In this document: piece after piece, positions 58,427-64,000 of the stretch
How the letters are laid out: every line of letters starts with the position of its first letter
Numbering within the stretch: position 1 is the stretch's first letter
NCBI RefSeq assembly: GCF_900232825.1
Contig: NZ_OCTP01000011.1
Location: 459,262 to 523,261, forward strand
Reading direction: 5' to 3'
Origin: Anaerococcus sp. Marseille-P3625
GTDB lineage: Bacteria > Bacillota > Clostridia > Tissierellales > Peptoniphilaceae
Length of the DNA stretch: 64,000 nt
Notes under the pieces: model-generated
Database searches by the model: none
What the model was told of the DNA's origin: nothing
What the model saw: the letters and a program-made list of their open reading frames with translations, nothing else
Position numbers and translations under genes: made by a program

Positions 58427-59071
58427 TCAAAACCTCTCAATCAAAGTAACGTTTTTATTATTTCTAAGAACTTTTAGATTCTTTCTAAGCTCGTGAAGCA
58501 AGTTGAAAGAAACTGAGTGAACATAGATAACAAGTCTTGTGATATTCAGTTCTTCATTTTCGATGCGCTTAATAAGTGTCATCACATCGTCTTGACTCAA
58601 ACCTTGGTTTATAATATAGAGAGTCTTCTCGATGAGGTCGGCTTTATAGTTTTCGAGTTTGTAGGTCTTTGAAATTTTGCTTAAACCATATCCATCTTCA
58701 TTGAGCCAAGTAGCAAGTATGCTTTCCTTGCCTTTGGAATGGTCATTATCAAAAATAGAAATCATATCATCGTTTATAAATTTGATTTCAGGTTCAAAAT
58801 TTTCTAAATCCACAAGAGTTTTTTCGCTAGGCTTTTCTAAATAATATAGCTTGTAACCGTAGTCGATATCTGCGCCAGTTTCTTTCTTAATCTTTTCTGC
58901 TGCCTTTTCAATTCTTGCCCTGCCTATTTCGTCGATAGATCTATAACCGGCCTTGTAAGCAGGTTTGTTTTCTTCTATTCTTTCAGGAAGTTGCACCATA
59001 ATATATTTACGGTTTCCACCATCTTCCGCATTTAGCTGCATTACTGCATCCGCTGTGGTGGCTGAGCCCTC
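58427..59071 (-). pseudogene. mod: C-terminal remnant of the type III modification methyltransferase (Mod), cut by the mobile element
   Basis: The frame reads GSATTADAVMQLNAEDGGN and then KYIMVQLPERIEENKPAY, the well-known Mod sequence around and after the AdoMet-binding motif (normally DFFxGSxTTAHAV). Upstream of GSATTAD the Mod sequence ends within a codon or two and unrelated element DNA begins (59069-59071). The catalytic DPPY part and target-recognition region are therefore absent. About 213 residues remain, all from the C-terminus. A shorter product could start at the internal ATG 59041 but would have no catalytic site. The stop lies two bases before res. The missing part should lie beyond the far end of the element. 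Confidence 0.88.
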
Positions 59072-59092
59072 TCATGTCAAGCTTATGACAAA
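59064..59092. other. Element-chromosome junction (attachment site) with adjacent dyad
   Basis: The mod codons end at GGCTCAGCC (read on the minus strand) and element sequence begins near 59069-59071. Four bases into the element TGTCAAGCTTATGACA (59075-59090), a near-perfect palindrome, is a likely recombinase-binding arm. Large serine recombinases exchange strands at a central dinucleotide; GA or GG at the junction are candidates. Confidence 0.65.
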
Positions 59093-59110
59093 AAAGAGGT
59101 TATTGTTATG

Positions 59111-59138
59111 TAATATAAAAGAGAGTGATTGCTCACTC
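59111..59138 (-). terminator. Terminator of the recombinase operon
   Basis: On the minus strand GAGTGA-GCAA-TCACTC is followed by TCTTTTATATTA. It lies between the last recombinase stop and the junction, so the operon does not read into the mod remnant and res. Confidence 0.8.
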
Positions 59139-59144
59139 CCTTTG

Positions 59145-60638
59145 CTACTTCCATTTTATGTTCAACACTTCATTTCCTTCGCAGATTACTGAGTCTATAT
59201 ATTTTTCCATCAATTCTCTGGTAAGTTTAGTGTTGTCTAATACTTCTTTTTCTTCTTTTGCTTTTAGTATTTTTTCTTTTATTGCTTGTATCTCTTCATC
59301 TATCAAATTTTTAGAGTCAATGAATTTTTGTCTATTCATCTTGCCTAATTTATACTTCTCAAAATTTTTCATTTTCTTAGTTTCAAGATCTTCAATAGAT
59401 TTTTCCATAGGTTTAACTTTTACTTTTTCATCCTTGTTTGGAGCTTCTAGACCATATTTTTCTTTTATTGCTTCAAATACTTGCTCCTCAAGGCTTCCTG
59501 CTCTTGAGTTCTTGTGTTTTACATTATTACACTTACATATCCTACAAGTAAAATATGTGTGTACTCTAAGACTCCCGTCAGGTCTTTTGTGTTTAGATTG
59601 AATGCATCCTAAAATATGATTACAAGTTGGACATTTTGCAAAACCTTGTAGTGGAGATTTCTTTCTCCATTCATAATCGATATTTTTACCTTTCATAAAT
59701 AGATTCTTCTCTTTAATCTTCTGAACTTTTTCAAAATCTTCTTTAGATATAATAGCTTCATGGTTATTCTCAACTCTTCCCCATTCTTCTTTTGGTTTGA
59801 ATTTAAAAGAAGCTGGATTTAACACTGACTTATCTTGCATATTAAAAGTGTAAGTTCCGGTATAATTTTCATTTGCTAATACATCTATTACATTTCCATT
59901 AGTCCAAGTTGGTCTAGGCTTTTTCGCAGTTCTAATTATTGAATATTCAAAATCAAGATTGGTTAATTCACTCTTTCTTTTTGATGGTGTTGGAATTTTT
60001 TCTTCATTTAATATCTTAGCTATATTTCTTGAAGATATACCATCAAGTGCAAGTTTAAAAATCTTCTTTACTATCCAAGCTGTTTCTTCATCAACTATGA
60101 TTTTGTGTCTATTATTAGGATCTTTCATATATCCTAAAGGTGGACTCCAAGCTAAAAACTTTCCTTGTTTTTTAAGTGTAGTCATAGATGATTTTACCTT
60201 TTCAGAAATATCTTTTGTGTAGAAATCATATAATAGTCCCTTGAATTGAATATCTAAATCTGTTCCATTTCCCTTTTCTTTGTTACTATCATAGCCATCA
60301 TTTATGGCGATAAATCTTACTCCTAGGAATGGAAATATGTTTTCAAGATAATCTCCAAGTGTTATATAATCTCTCATAAATCTGGACAAGTCTTTTACAA
60401 TTATAGTCTGTATATTGTTTTTCTTTACATCTTCGAGCATTCTTTGAAATGCTGGTCTATTTTCGTTTGTTCCAGAGTATCCGTCATCAACATATTCTTC
60501 TCTTGTGAAGTTTTTAAATTCTTCATTCATATCTAAATAATCGTTTAGATATGCTCTTTGATTTATGATACTTTCACTCTCATCAGTCTTTATCATATCT
60601 TCAACGGATAATCTAATATAAAGAGCAATCTTACTCAT
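59145..60638 (-). CDS. Large serine recombinase 1 (third gene of the operon)
   Basis: The protein has 497 residues. The resolvase domain has the catalytic serine in ALYIRLSVED (Ser11) and DLSRFMRDY. A recombinase domain follows (about 165-290), then a zinc ribbon with CPTC near 350 and CRIC near 385, and a helical coiled-coil end. The architecture is that of TnpX/TndX-type integrases. Its start overlaps the preceding recombinase by eight bases. It lies closest to the element border, as expected for an integrase. Confidence 0.93.
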   Translation of the reverse strand: MSKIALYIRLSVEDMIKTDESESIINQRAYLNDYLDMNEEFKNFTREEYVDDGYSGTNENRPAFQRMLEDVKKNNIQTIIVKDLSRFMRDYITLGDYLENIFPFLGVRFIAINDGYDSNKEKGNGTDLDIQFKGLLYDFYTKDISEKVKSSMTTLKKQGKFLAWSPPLGYMKDPNNRHKIIVDEETAWIVKKIFKLALDGISSRNIAKILNEEKIPTPSKRKSELTNLDFEYSIIRTAKKPRPTWTNGNVIDVLANENYTGTYTFNMQDKSVLNPASFKFKPKEEWGRVENNHEAIISKEDFEKVQKIKEKNLFMKGKNIDYEWRKKSPLQGFAKCPTCNHILGCIQSKHKRPDGSLRVHTYFTCRICKCNNVKHKNSRAGSLEEQVFEAIKEKYGLEAPNKDEKVKVKPMEKSIEDLETKKMKNFEKYKLGKMNRQKFIDSKNLIDEEIQAIKEKILKAKEEKEVLDNTKLTRELMEKYIDSVICEGNEVLNIKWK

Positions 60639-62301
60639 CGTCTGTTCCTCCTACCAAATTATCTATATTGAATTTAAAGACTATTTCAAATTCGTGTTTA
60701 TCATAAACTATTATTTTTTCAATTAAGCTATGGATTAAATCACCAGGTAGCTTTTCCAAATTCTTTGAAGCATATAAATCATTTATCCATTTTGTTGATT
60801 TTAATCTTTCTTTTTTAAGTTTTGATATATTAACTTCAATTGCTGAAATCTCGTTATCAAATGTATCCATATGACTTTGAGCAATCTCTCTTTTTAATAG
60901 ATACTCATCTCTATCAATCTTCCCTAGACTATATTCTTCATAGGCTCTTTGAATGATATTTTCTTCATTTAGATTTTTTCTTTTAAGATTTTCTATGTCT
61001 TTCTTAAAAGTATCTATCGCTTTATTAAATCTAGCTTTAATTCGATTAACAAATTTTGTCTTGCTAGTTGTCTTCATAATAAACTCAGAAATCTTATCAC
61101 TAATAGCCTGATCTAAATCTCTTTCCATAATGAATACTGATTTTTCGGGTTTTATACTTCCACTAAATCTCTCATTCTGAAATGAATAGTAAAGTCTATC
61201 TCTATTCTTACCATAGATACGAGTTCTTCTATTAAGTTCTTTGCCAGTATTATTATTGATTACAAGACCCTTAAATCTGTTCTCATAGTCCCTATTTTCA
61301 AAATTGTGCATTGGCGAACTGAAAACATGATTTTTCTTTCTTTCTTGTCTTTCTCGTAAGATTCTTTCGTGAACTTCCTTAGAAATGATTGCTTCATGTG
61401 CATTCTCACAAATTATATACTGACTTTCGTCTACAAAATGTTGCTTAATGCCTTTTGCAAGATTTTGTTGCTTAACTCCTTGTACTAAAGTCCCCGTATA
61501 AGCTGGGTTTGTAAGCATTTTAGAAATTGTCCCTTTATTCCATTCAGGATCATCATTTTCTCTGTAAACTCTCCCAGTTTTATAGTAAATCATTCCAGGA
61601 GCATAGCCTTTTTCATTAAAATGCTTTGCGACTTCATATTGGCTTTTGCCTTGAAGAGTTAAATCAAACATCTCTTCCACAATAAATCTAACATTTTCAT
61701 CGATTACAAGTTTTTGACCTTCTTTAGATTTTTTAATCTTGTAACCATAAGGTGGAACAGAACCAATAAAGTATCCGTTTCTTGCTCTATTGTGTTTTGA
61801 GGTTTTTATCTTAACTGAAATATCCTTAGCATACATATCGTTGATAATATTTTTAAGAGTAACCTCAAAAGATTTCTTTGAATCTGTTTCTTTGACTGTG
61901 TCTAATTTATCATTAACTGAAATAAATCTAACACCTAAAAATGGAAAAACTTTATCAATCAATCTTCCCATTTCGAGATATTCTCTTCCAAGTCTTGATA
62001 AATCTCTGATAATAATACAATTGATTCTTCTATCTCTAATATCTTGCATCATATTCTGAAATGATGGTCTTTCAAAGTTTGTCCCACTATATTCATAATC
62101 TGTGTAAACTTCTAAAACATCTATATTTTCTTTTAATGCATATTCTTTACAAGATAGGATTTGAGTTTCTATTGAGTATGATTTTTCTCTCCACTCTTCT
62201 GTTCTTTCGTTAGATAGTCTTGTATAAATTCCAGCCTTAAAGACTTTTCTTTCTGTCTTTTCGCTTTTCTTTTCAATATATCTTTTGGAAGTTCTTGCCA
62301 T
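60631..62301 (-). CDS. Large serine recombinase 2, lacking the zinc-ribbon cysteines
   Basis: The protein has 556 residues. The catalytic serine is in AGIYTRLSNER (Ser30) after a basic extension of about 20 residues; IRDLSRLGREY and YGYKIKKSKEGQKLVIDE follow. In the region where relatives have a Cys4 zinc ribbon (FKGLVINNNTGKELNRR to YYSFQNERFSG) no cysteine is present. It could be an accessory partner instead of a full integrase, as in multi-recombinase elements. It overlaps the upstream recombinase gene by one base. Confidence 0.92.
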   Translation of the reverse strand: MARTSKRYIEKKSEKTERKVFKAGIYTRLSNERTEEWREKSYSIETQILSCKEYALKENIDVLEVYTDYEYSGTNFERPSFQNMMQDIRDRRINCIIIRDLSRLGREYLEMGRLIDKVFPFLGVRFISVNDKLDTVKETDSKKSFEVTLKNIINDMYAKDISVKIKTSKHNRARNGYFIGSVPPYGYKIKKSKEGQKLVIDENVRFIVEEMFDLTLQGKSQYEVAKHFNEKGYAPGMIYYKTGRVYRENDDPEWNKGTISKMLTNPAYTGTLVQGVKQQNLAKGIKQHFVDESQYIICENAHEAIISKEVHERILRERQERKKNHVFSSPMHNFENRDYENRFKGLVINNNTGKELNRRTRIYGKNRDRLYYSFQNERFSGSIKPEKSVFIMERDLDQAISDKISEFIMKTTSKTKFVNRIKARFNKAIDTFKKDIENLKRKNLNEENIIQRAYEEYSLGKIDRDEYLLKREIAQSHMDTFDNEISAIEVNISKLKKERLKSTKWINDLYASKNLEKLPGDLIHSLIEKIIVYDKHEFEIVFKFNIDNLVGGTDDE

Positions 62302-63971
62302 TATAAAACACCTCCAGCTAATTGCATTGGAGTCTTATTTTCAAGAGCATTTCCAAATACCTTATTTATTGAAATCAAATTCTTCTTTACTTCTGACTTG
62401 CTTTCACTTTCTTCTTTTATAAGGGTCTTCAGTAAGTTAACTGTTTCCAAATTATTAAAGACAAAATTAATCTCATTGTTTTCTCTGATTTCAATTCTAT
62501 CTATAAAAGATACAATTGTTAGTCTATTTAGACTGCTTAAATCAGTGGGAACAATTTCGGAAACCAAACTGTCCTTTTTTTTCATCTTTTCTTGCAAGTT
62601 GGCAAGTATATTTTTCTTTGTAGCAATTTGTTTCTCTATTTCCCTGATTTTAATAAGATAATTTTTTCTGAACCTTTCAAACTCTTCAGAAGTTATAAGT
62701 TCGTCTTCTAAGTCCATATATAAAGATTGTCTAAGTCTTTCATACTTTCTTTTTTCTGAGTTTAAGCTTTCAAAGTCAATATTAAATGTAACTTTTGATA
62801 CATCTAACTTATTAACTTGACTTAGTAGTTCATTATATTTTTTCAAATAATCTTTAAGTGCAAAAAGAGTCATATCCAGTAGATAATCTTCTTTTATGCT
62901 ATGTCTTGTGCAATCTCCTTTGTTATTGTAGTGAGAACAAATATAAAAAATATTATATCCATTCTTGGACTTAACCTTTCTTCTAACCATTGAAGATCCA
63001 CAATCTTTGCAATAAAGCATTCCCGATAAAATATGTGGTATATCTGCCGATTGCTTTACATCTCGAAGCATCATCTTATTAGCCAAAGCATAAATGCTTT
63101 TTGAAATAATAGGCTTATGAGAGTCGTTTATTACAATCCAATCTTCTTCATTTACTTCTACTTCTCTCTTAGACTTGTAATTTAGTTTTCTAGTTTTCCC
63201 TTGTTCAAGCACTCCTATATAGACCTTGTTTGTAATAATCCTATTGACCATTTTTGAGTCCCATTTAGAGTCTTTAACAATAAAACCAGTGGTGTGATTA
63301 TCGCCAGAATTTTCTTTATGCTTAGATGGTGTTACACAACCTATGCTATTTAAAAAATCTGCAATAGCCTTAGATGAGTAACCGTCTATCTTCATATTGA
63401 AAATTCTTTCAATTATGTGTGAAACTTCTGTATCAACGACTAACTTATGTTTGTTTTTGCTATCCTTCTTATAACCAAAAGGAGCAAATGCACCAATAAA
63501 TTCACCATTCTTTCTTTTAATTTCTTTTGAAGATTTAACCTTCATAGAAATATCCCTACAATAAGAATCATTAATAAAGTTTCTTATTGGAAGAATTAGG
63601 TGTGTATCGCTTACATCTGCATTCTCACTGTCATAGTTATCGTTTACGGATATAAACCTTATACCTTTTTCTGGAAATATCTTTTGAAGATATTTTCCTG
63701 ATTCGATATAATCTCTCCCAAAACGGGATAAGTCCTTCACAATAATTGTTTTGAACTTCTTCTCTTCAAGATCTTGAATCATCTTCTTAAATTTTGGTCT
63801 GTCAAAATTAGATCCTGAAAAGCCATCATCTACATATTCAGCAACAACTTTAAAATCATTGTCCTTTGCATATGATTTGATAATCTGTCTTTGATTTGAA
63901 ATAGAATTACTTTCTGTGCTATCTCCATCCTCTCTCGATAAACGAAGATACATACAAGCAAATTTTTCCAT
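62301..63971 (-). CDS. Large serine recombinase 3 (first gene of the operon in the window)
   Basis: The protein has 556 residues from ATG 63971, which has GGAGG seven bases upstream; a GTG one codon earlier is less well spaced. The catalytic serine is in CMYLRLSRED (Ser12), with KDLSRFGRDY and AFAPFGYKKDSKNKHKLVVD. A complete zinc ribbon follows (YCKDCGSSM, then FYICSHYNNKGDC), and a coiled coil near 440-480. Sequence upstream runs off the window, so further element genes are expected there. Confidence 0.93.
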   Translation of the reverse strand: MEKFACMYLRLSREDGDSTESNSISNQRQIIKSYAKDNDFKVVAEYVDDGFSGSNFDRPKFKKMIQDLEEKKFKTIIVKDLSRFGRDYIESGKYLQKIFPEKGIRFISVNDNYDSENADVSDTHLILPIRNFINDSYCRDISMKVKSSKEIKRKNGEFIGAFAPFGYKKDSKNKHKLVVDTEVSHIIERIFNMKIDGYSSKAIADFLNSIGCVTPSKHKENSGDNHTTGFIVKDSKWDSKMVNRIITNKVYIGVLEQGKTRKLNYKSKREVEVNEEDWIVINDSHKPIISKSIYALANKMMLRDVKQSADIPHILSGMLYCKDCGSSMVRRKVKSKNGYNIFYICSHYNNKGDCTRHSIKEDYLLDMTLFALKDYLKKYNELLSQVNKLDVSKVTFNIDFESLNSEKRKYERLRQSLYMDLEDELITSEEFERFRKNYLIKIREIEKQIATKKNILANLQEKMKKKDSLVSEIVPTDLSSLNRLTIVSFIDRIEIRENNEINFVFNNLETVNLLKTLIKEESESKSEVKKNLISINKVFGNALENKTPMQLAGGVL

Positions 63972-64000
63972 CACAAAACCTCCTTAATTTGTATTTGGGC

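Follow-up and report, generated by a model that had tools for sequence, protein, structure and literature searches.

The window analysed here is a 64,000-nucleotide stretch of Anaerococcus sp. Marseille-P3625 (positions 459262-523261 of contig C1; the genome is G000, and other G and L numbers denote genomes and loci). It contains an intact type III restriction gene, res, beside the C-terminal half of its modification partner, mod, which is cut off by one end of a 104.4-kb integrative and conjugative element (ICE). We hold it to be very likely that this ICE was integrated by its triplet of large serine recombinases at a GG that forms codon positions 1-2 of the first invariant glycine of S-adenosylmethionine (AdoMet) motif I, the integrase reading DNA letters that coincide with the motif codons. 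The analysis found both junctions, dozens of other genes split at that codon, and off-target sites bearing the same letters.

A type III mod gene split at one glycine codon

55467..58430, minus strand: res, type III restriction endonuclease subunit, intact, 987 aa (NCBIfam PRK15483; Pfam ResIII and RE_endonuc)
58427..59068, minus strand: mod C-terminal half, from the Gly codon GGC of FSG/SATTAD to the normal stop (Pfam T3RM_EcoP15I_C)
59067..59068, minus strand: core dinucleotide GG, common to both junctions (other junction, C1:622773-622772), from comparison of the Mod frames
C1:622772-624045, minus strand, outside the window: mod N-terminal half, to VLDFFSG (PF01555 and reading of the frame)

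An earlier reading made from the letters of the window (the sequence-only reading) had proposed that an element with serine recombinases splits a type III mod gene within its AdoMet-motif codons, beside an intact res, and that the Mod N-terminus should be sought at the far end of the element; all three proposals were borne out. Res matched NCBIfam PRK15483, a type III endonuclease model, with 1202.5 bits over residues 3-986. The Mod C-half, which matched Pfam T3RM_EcoP15I_C (3.3e-29), reads GGC TCA GCC ACC ACA GCG GAT (G-S-A-T-T-A-D) from window position 59068 on the minus strand; its first codon GGC occupies 59068-59066, with an in-frame TGA two codons upstream, and adjoins element DNA followed by three tandem serine recombinase genes. 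A search of the same genome with the N6_N4_Mtase family gave a match at C1:622768-623694, on the strand of the C-half. The N-half found there covers positions 1-191 of the 221 of PF01555, carries DPPYNTG and stops being Mod after ...SIVLDFFSG at C1:622772, where a short element-encoded tail follows; the far junction is placed at C1:622773 (L004:6774, minus strand). Both halves break at one codon, VLDFFSG/SATTAD, at junctions 104.4 kb apart on one contig, and the hallmarks of a type III restriction-modification (R-M) system are present (DPPY, motif I and the EcoP15I C-terminal domain in Mod, helicase and endonuclease domains in Res), with Mod in two pieces.

The overlap of the Mod frames at the two junctions is GG only. 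Exact words common to window positions 58951-59200 and L004 on the same strand were no longer than 10 bases and were absent from the far junction; the short direct repeat that had been anticipated at the ends is thus present as the shared GG, and nothing longer was found. A 2-bp core is what the serine recombinase family is expected to use.

The integrating element

59069..64000, minus strand: part of the 104.4-kb ICE that lies in the window (the rest is G000:C1:523262-622771)
59069..59144, minus strand: left end of the element, ...CTTGACATGAGAG, with a hairpin (-16 kcal/mol) and then TTTT just past the recombinase stop
59145..60638, minus strand: large serine recombinase, external member of the triplet, 497 aa (Pfam Resolvase and Recombinase; placed in the tree)
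60631..62301, minus strand: large serine recombinase, middle member, 556 aa (Pfam Resolvase and Recombinase)
62301..63974, minus strand: large serine recombinase, internal member, 557 aa (Pfam Resolvase, Recombinase and zinc ribbon)

A simple terminator scan called nothing at the left end, though folding gives the hairpin and TTTT there. The ICE carries by Pfam a conjugation module with a MobA/VirD2-like relaxase, a TraG P-loop protein, which appears VirB4-like on reading, and a VirD4/TraG coupling protein. With this module, its recombinase triplet and its target, the element is probably of the Tn1806-like type. According to the available text of PMC12942858 and PMC13006639, Tn1806-like streptococcal ICEs have triple serine integrases, split hsdM, snf2 and Eco57I-type methylase genes, have ends given as TGGG/GGGA or GGGG with low specificity for a GGGG repeat, and have had their integration and transfer demonstrated by conjugation. 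The present ICE shares with them the triplet and the splitting of methylase genes, as far as those texts go, but it has struck a type III mod gene in Anaerococcus, the targets collected here also include an ArsM-like gene, and one codon rule covers them all. In the available passages of PMC4701971 (Ambroset 2016), triplet-serine-integrase ICEs form external, middle and internal clusters, target hsdM, mutT and traG, and have repeats of 2-8 bp, and their excision may restore hsdM. A methyltransferase-type gene is likewise split here with a very short repeat (GG), but neither a motif-level target nor type III mod occurs in those passages.

One codon in many methyltransferase genes

A search of named genomes with the external recombinase gave 111 relatives, of which the best 80, representing 79 distinct loci, were kept. 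Among these best 80 of 111, 13 loci were 96-98% identical (one partial) and 10 about 70% identical; the integrases of streptococcal relatives, lying in hsdM-like and other methylase genes, were 70-97% identical. When 24 loci (L022-L045) were read outward, 16 had the end CTTGACAYGAGAGGG or a similar one directly past the recombinase, and six had it after an intervening stretch. Pattern searches found the left end CTTGACAYGAGAGGG in 22 other genomes (23 of 130 same-family genomes in all), 14 of 284 Streptococcus genomes gave matches, and the right end was found in 13 of 391 same-class genomes; backward-pattern controls gave none among the matches listed. Left ends adjoin G-x-G of many different methyltransferases in a constant codon phase, and right ends were present in 36 of the 38 locus handles tried, at least 10 of which duplicate others. 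The junction contexts collected comprise 35 distinct left and 49 distinct right ones, some being near-copies of one another, and in G000, G009, G016, G031 and G045 both halves lie on one contig in one orientation and are of one kind. Streptococcal-type copies also stand in the records of Haemophilus massiliensis (L036) and Necropsobacter massiliensis (L037), which would mean cross-phylum transfer or contamination.

Half-frames of at least 60 aa were tested against Pfam. A methyltransferase family was matched by 27 of 34 N-halves (N6_Mtase in 22, N6_N4_Mtase in four, MmeI_N in one), and for three of the remaining seven the partner is a recognised C-half in the same genome: L108 (ArsM-like) for L137, L023 for L139, and L038 for L159. 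The name SNF2-type for L023 and L038 follows the published target, an SNF2 domain not being detected in the searches made. The other non-matching N-halves are L155 and L162, which are uncertain, L222, a dicarboxylate symporter, and L229, which is without identity. Methyltransferase families were likewise matched by 25 of 30 C-halves (N6_Mtase in 21, MmeI_Mtase in L198, Methyltransf_31 in L108, N6_N4_Mtase in L035, and the Mod C-half described above); the nearest NCBIfam model of L108 is arsenite methyltransferase (2e-42, below the cut-off of that family). L018 and L201 resemble Mod without a Pfam match. As far as these searches show, three of the 30 are not methyltransferases: L211 is an NlpA lipoprotein, L217 has a ResIII Walker A, and L029 reads like an acetyltransferase but has no Pfam match.

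The break fell at one point of each profile. Position 56 of N6_Mtase is the end of 20 of 22 N-halves (the others end at 52 and 55) and the start of seven of the eight C-halves scanned singly, and position 191 of N6_N4_Mtase is the break in all four N-halves and the one C-half. Conservation of 90% or more was reached by D at -4 and G at 0 among the N-halves, and by G1 among the C-halves. In HsdM, type III Mod, MmeI-type and ArsM-like genes, the crossover is the first Gly codon of D-x-x-x-G-x-G (D-x-x-x-G/x-G), that is, AdoMet motif I. These same-codon splits in so varied a set of methyltransferases suggest one motif-codon rule, by which the integrases seem to recognise the DNA encoding a common protein motif. 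The sequence-only reading had already suggested that the codons of a conserved motif suit an attachment site, an idea that now has much stronger support.

Uninterrupted mod loci in the same genus

The Mod C-half was matched in 11 of 31 same-genus genomes, that of the window included. In nine of the 10 others the Mod frame runs uninterrupted across the split codon, through D[FI]FSGSATTA, and in the five closest Mod relatives (L012-L016) a Res-like open reading frame with an ILPHQ or ILDHQ start comes next; empty mod-res loci, expected in related strains by the sequence-only reading, were thus recovered. Eight of the nine uninterrupted frames are 616-671 aa long. The ninth (L014), of 372 aa, has a stop upstream and may be a short or broken copy, but not one broken at the split codon. 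In the tenth genome, G001, the same element end interrupts a different mod allele, again at the split codon, and the N-half lies on another contig. Compared with the mod of the window, its N-half is 66% identical over 391 residues and its C-half 49% over 99, and since the alleles differ, the two splits would most simply be two separate insertions.

Probable recognition at the DNA level

The 49 right arms, unfiltered, have G at -12 and A at -11 in 47 and T at -17 in 44. The 34 left arms have A/T at +3 in 34, and C/G at +4, G at +6 and C/G at +7 in 32 each (the left end of L024 lies at a contig end, without flank). These letters are codons of hydrophobic-x-D-x-x-x-G-[ST]-[GA]. A filter that included D at -4 divided the right arms into 34 methyltransferase-like and 15 others, and GA occurs in 13 of the 15, six of which look like methyltransferase fragments. 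Nine right contexts were read as non-methyltransferase, and seven of these have GA at -12/-11 (L146, L163, L172, L222, the second context of L226, L228 and L232). Three such GA sites are clearly unrelated: a catalase region in Necropsobacter (L172/L037), named by reading its frame, a dicarboxylate symporter gene (L222), and a spacer of clustered regularly interspaced short palindromic repeats (CRISPR; L146/L030). The chance of GA in three of three unrelated sites is about 2e-4 from base composition, a figure computed after the sites had been chosen. As GA is kept at seven of nine right ends outside methyltransferases, recognition is probably at the DNA level.

A score matrix was made from 40 right and 33 left arms, leaving out the site in the window on both sides and also the right-junction loci L163, L221, L226, L228, L229, L230 and L232. 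Over the 27 matches to the degenerate logo pattern in the Anaerococcus genome, AdoMet-motif sites, judged by reading the translation, were the best five and eight of the best 11, the highest score being that of an intact hsdM-like frame at C1:97759; this ranking is partly circular, because the matrix was learnt mostly from methyltransferases.

The published view is that such elements integrate with low specificity at GGG(G) repeats and that methyltransferases are over-represented because their loss is tolerated. The attachment site of the element (attP), as inferred from the two ends, does hold GGGG, R-M genes do dominate the targets, and the motif-I sites of other methyltransferases in the same genome are unoccupied. 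Low specificity, however, is at odds with GA 12 bases upstream in 47 of 49 right arms and its retention in seven of nine contexts outside methyltransferases, and with a break at one profile position in nearly all halves scanned; moreover, selection for tolerance alone cannot put the cut in the same codon. We therefore regard this view as very improbable beside integration at motif I codons.

Several points nevertheless weigh against the motif-codon rule. It is a reading of sequence data. The Pfam test covered frames of at least 60 aa, with 15 right and five left frames falling below that length. GA in 34 of 34 methyltransferase-like right arms is so by construction, because the filter asked for D at -4, and the arm logo is still mostly codon constraint; the GG counts in the wider set are likewise not independent evidence, because GG is partly built into the search patterns. 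Two of the nine non-methyltransferase right contexts (L229, L230) are without GA, and the contexts of L163, L226 (second), L228 and L232 are alike and may be something other than true junctions. The excess of the degenerate pattern in the Anaerococcus genome is modest, with 27 matches against 17 in the backward control. Among the 24 loci read outward, no element end was found in L026, and L044 is a run of N. Finally, the left and right targets found in G014 and G115 do not pair, so that several elements or rearrangement must be assumed there.

In A. vaginimassiliensis (L030:9600-10000), the same kind of element lies inside a spacer of a CRISPR-like array with six repeats of period 61-62 bases.

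Probable loss of restriction-modification and its possible reversal

In the mechanism that we favour, conjugation would bring the ICE in, and the triplet would join attP (GGGG, as inferred from the two ends) to a chromosomal site spelling motif I. The integrase would recognise about T at -17, GAY at -12, GG at 0 and then N-W-S-N-G-S, and exchange at GG would split mod. Any class I AdoMet methyltransferase could offer a site, because the recognised letters coincide with the codons of hydrophobic-x-D-x-x-x-G-x-G; the targets mostly found occupied are dispensable R-M methyltransferases. The mod N-half retains DPPY and most of the target-recognition part but breaks off within motif I, and the C-half lacks a start and lies behind a stop codon and a hairpin that a T run follows. 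Judged by these features, both Mod halves are almost surely inactive. Type III Res depends on Mod, so that restriction and modification would both be off without self-restriction, and loss of this R-M system by the insertion is a strong inference. The R-M targets (type I M, type III Mod and MmeI-type fusion) share such harmless loss, and insertions into them may therefore persist.

The sequence-only reading went further and saw in the element a possible switch, in which regulated excision would make mod whole again and bring restriction back. The two mod halves and the three recombinase genes all have open frames, a related ICE yields circle and empty-site polymerase chain reaction products in the available text of PMC12942858, and excision when hsdM is useful is suggested in the passages available of PMC4701971. 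Against this, the circle and empty-site bands of the related ICE are described as faint in section 3.4 of PMC12942858, the coupling-protein gene of the present ICE is split by a nested element, and an empty site of the same mod allele was not seen among the same-genus genomes compared. A regulated switch thus appears unlikely; reversal by excision is possible in principle and probably rare.

Sister integrases and other protein motifs

A second recombinase type, 41-43% identical, occurs in 21 of 130 family genomes, that of the window included (E <= 1e-100). Its constant end CAATTGCTTGACATTGTAG, which lies 1.1-1.3 kb beyond the sister recombinase, adjoins GK[ST] of an ATP-binding cassette (ABC)-type ATPase in 10 of 13 loci; in the other three (L120, L125, L130) no GK[ST] junction was found within the available flank. 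The right end was obtained from two N-halves found among truncated ABC exporters, and each sister-element end is present in 23 of 130 family genomes, the backward control giving none among the matches listed. All 28 C-halves of this Walker A clade begin GK[ST][TSL] (L340 after a one-base shift in the frame rule), and the N-halves end in G-x-x-G-x-G in 25 of 26 cases, with the same motif one base shifted in the remaining one (GGNGSGG). ABC_tran was matched by 25 of the 28 C-halves, some of the genes being near-copies of one another.

A third group has one end, close to TACTACATAAAAA..GTA, that directly precedes SGD[TSN]L-type LysM codons in 29 places, in 28 of 55 loci (L046-L100). These loci were scanned by crude split-gene rules, by which only the LysM pattern was clear and only left ends were seen, and the LysM target seems less sure than the AdoMet and Walker A targets. 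In a recombinase tree with 62 members, the rows for AdoMet, for Walker A and for LysM each group together (supports 100/99, 100/100 and 100/99), with one 'other' row inside the LysM group and long branches flagged. The LysM-adjoining loci (L052-L091) are mostly in uncultured Bacilli genomes.

Taken together, it is likely, if less so than the reading of the mod insertion itself, that a clade of large serine recombinases uses the DNA of ubiquitous protein motifs as attachment sites, with sub-clades reading AdoMet motif I, the Walker A motif of ABC ATPases and LysM SGDTL, so that motif codons would be universal landing sites, many per genome. Within this same reading, and with the same likelihood, the core GG of the AdoMet and Walker A clades would be the invariant first two letters of a glycine codon.

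It might instead be envisaged that specificity evolved to knock out restriction and thereby ease entry of foreign DNA, an advantage which the sequence-only reading had also ascribed to the element. Most recognised targets are indeed M genes, and with their loss R is disabled as well (type I HsdM, type III Mod and the MmeI-type fusion), and a free-standing type II M gene was not recognised among the targets, for which no systematic search was made, the type of L219 being unsettled. However, an ArsM-like gene is also a target, restriction would act before integration, and the sister clades target Walker A codons (28 of 28 C-halves, 25 with ABC_tran) and, it seems, LysM codons, in genes unrelated to restriction. 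An origin in disarming restriction is therefore improbable, and the proposed gain to the element stays a conjecture; in view of the Walker A and LysM targets, we argue that ubiquity of the motif, rather than disarming of restriction, shaped the specificity.

Inteins and homing elements take the codons of invariant motifs, P-loops among them, as universal sites; they differ from the present elements in enzymes and mechanism, and do not integrate large elements. Multi-targeting large serine recombinases, in which one cluster has many target genes and complex motifs, are described in the available text of PMC10083194, where they are not tied to protein-motif codons and DUF4368 is frequent. By Pfam, DUF4368 was not found in the present triplet and is present in the recombinase of the nested element. 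The enterococcus cassette chromosome of PMC6222049 was considered as a Walker A precedent and set aside, as the passages available concern an rlmH site. The word 'motif' does not occur in the available text of PMC4701971, PMC12942858 or PMC13006639, and a literature search, which did not reach subscription papers or supplements, found no statement of the motif-codon rule. ICE insertion into methyltransferases is thus already published (2016-2026), and the motif-codon rule is the new point, as far as the literature searched.

In place of separate, odd-looking insertion sites (hsdM, snf2, 'MTase'), the rule would predict where cargo-carrying ICEs can land in any genome, and would explain how an integrase can be both specific and never without a site. 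With sister integrases that recognise other motifs, domain swaps between natural relatives could test what determines target choice, and such integrases are of interest as tools for DNA integration. For hosts, R-M systems, ABC transporters and perhaps LysM proteins would be recurrent collateral damage of mobile elements.

Further observations on the ICE and the genome

The nested element, of about 15 kb (G000:C1:603496-618650; L009, L004), interrupts the VirD4/TraG coupling-protein gene of the ICE and carries a DUF4368 serine recombinase, a MobA/MobL relaxase and ABC-transporter-like frames. Nesting in a traG target is known from streptococci, according to the available text of PMC5357655. As the coupling-protein gene is interrupted, transfer of this ICE is probably impaired at present.

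One cargo region of the ICE (G000:C1:528211-549719; L005, L006) has non-ribosomal peptide synthetase, Irp3-like thiazolinyl imine reductase and ABC-transporter-like frames, and resembles metallophore loci of the yersiniabactin/equibactin type. In another (G000:C1:553154-574120; L006, L007), frames look, on reading of the frames only, like lanthipeptide or radical-SAM peptide genes, ABC transporters and a two-component system. A 2547-aa protein of the ICE (C1:575554-583197) was searched for a D...G[STAC][GA] motif and none was present; by the motif rule, therefore, the ICE offers no site for itself there. A C5 cytosine methyltransferase gene (G000:C1:585529-586491; L008) consists of two adjacent frames and is possibly broken, and a frame in the conjugation region (G000:C1:599264-601132; L009) looks like a group II intron reverse transcriptase.

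The second element of the genome, of the sister clade, spans 79 kb (C11:91998-170979; L303, L330) and splits an ABC-transporter ATPase at its Walker A codons. Its N-half was sought in C11:108-172 kb, where one irrelevant frame was found; the end lies at C11:91998. On contig C1, a phage-like site occurs three times at an exact spacing of 62,841 bases (G000:C1:155764, 218605 and 281446; L236-L238), which suggests that a 62.8-kb segment (prophage) has been triplicated in tandem, or else an artefact of assembly.

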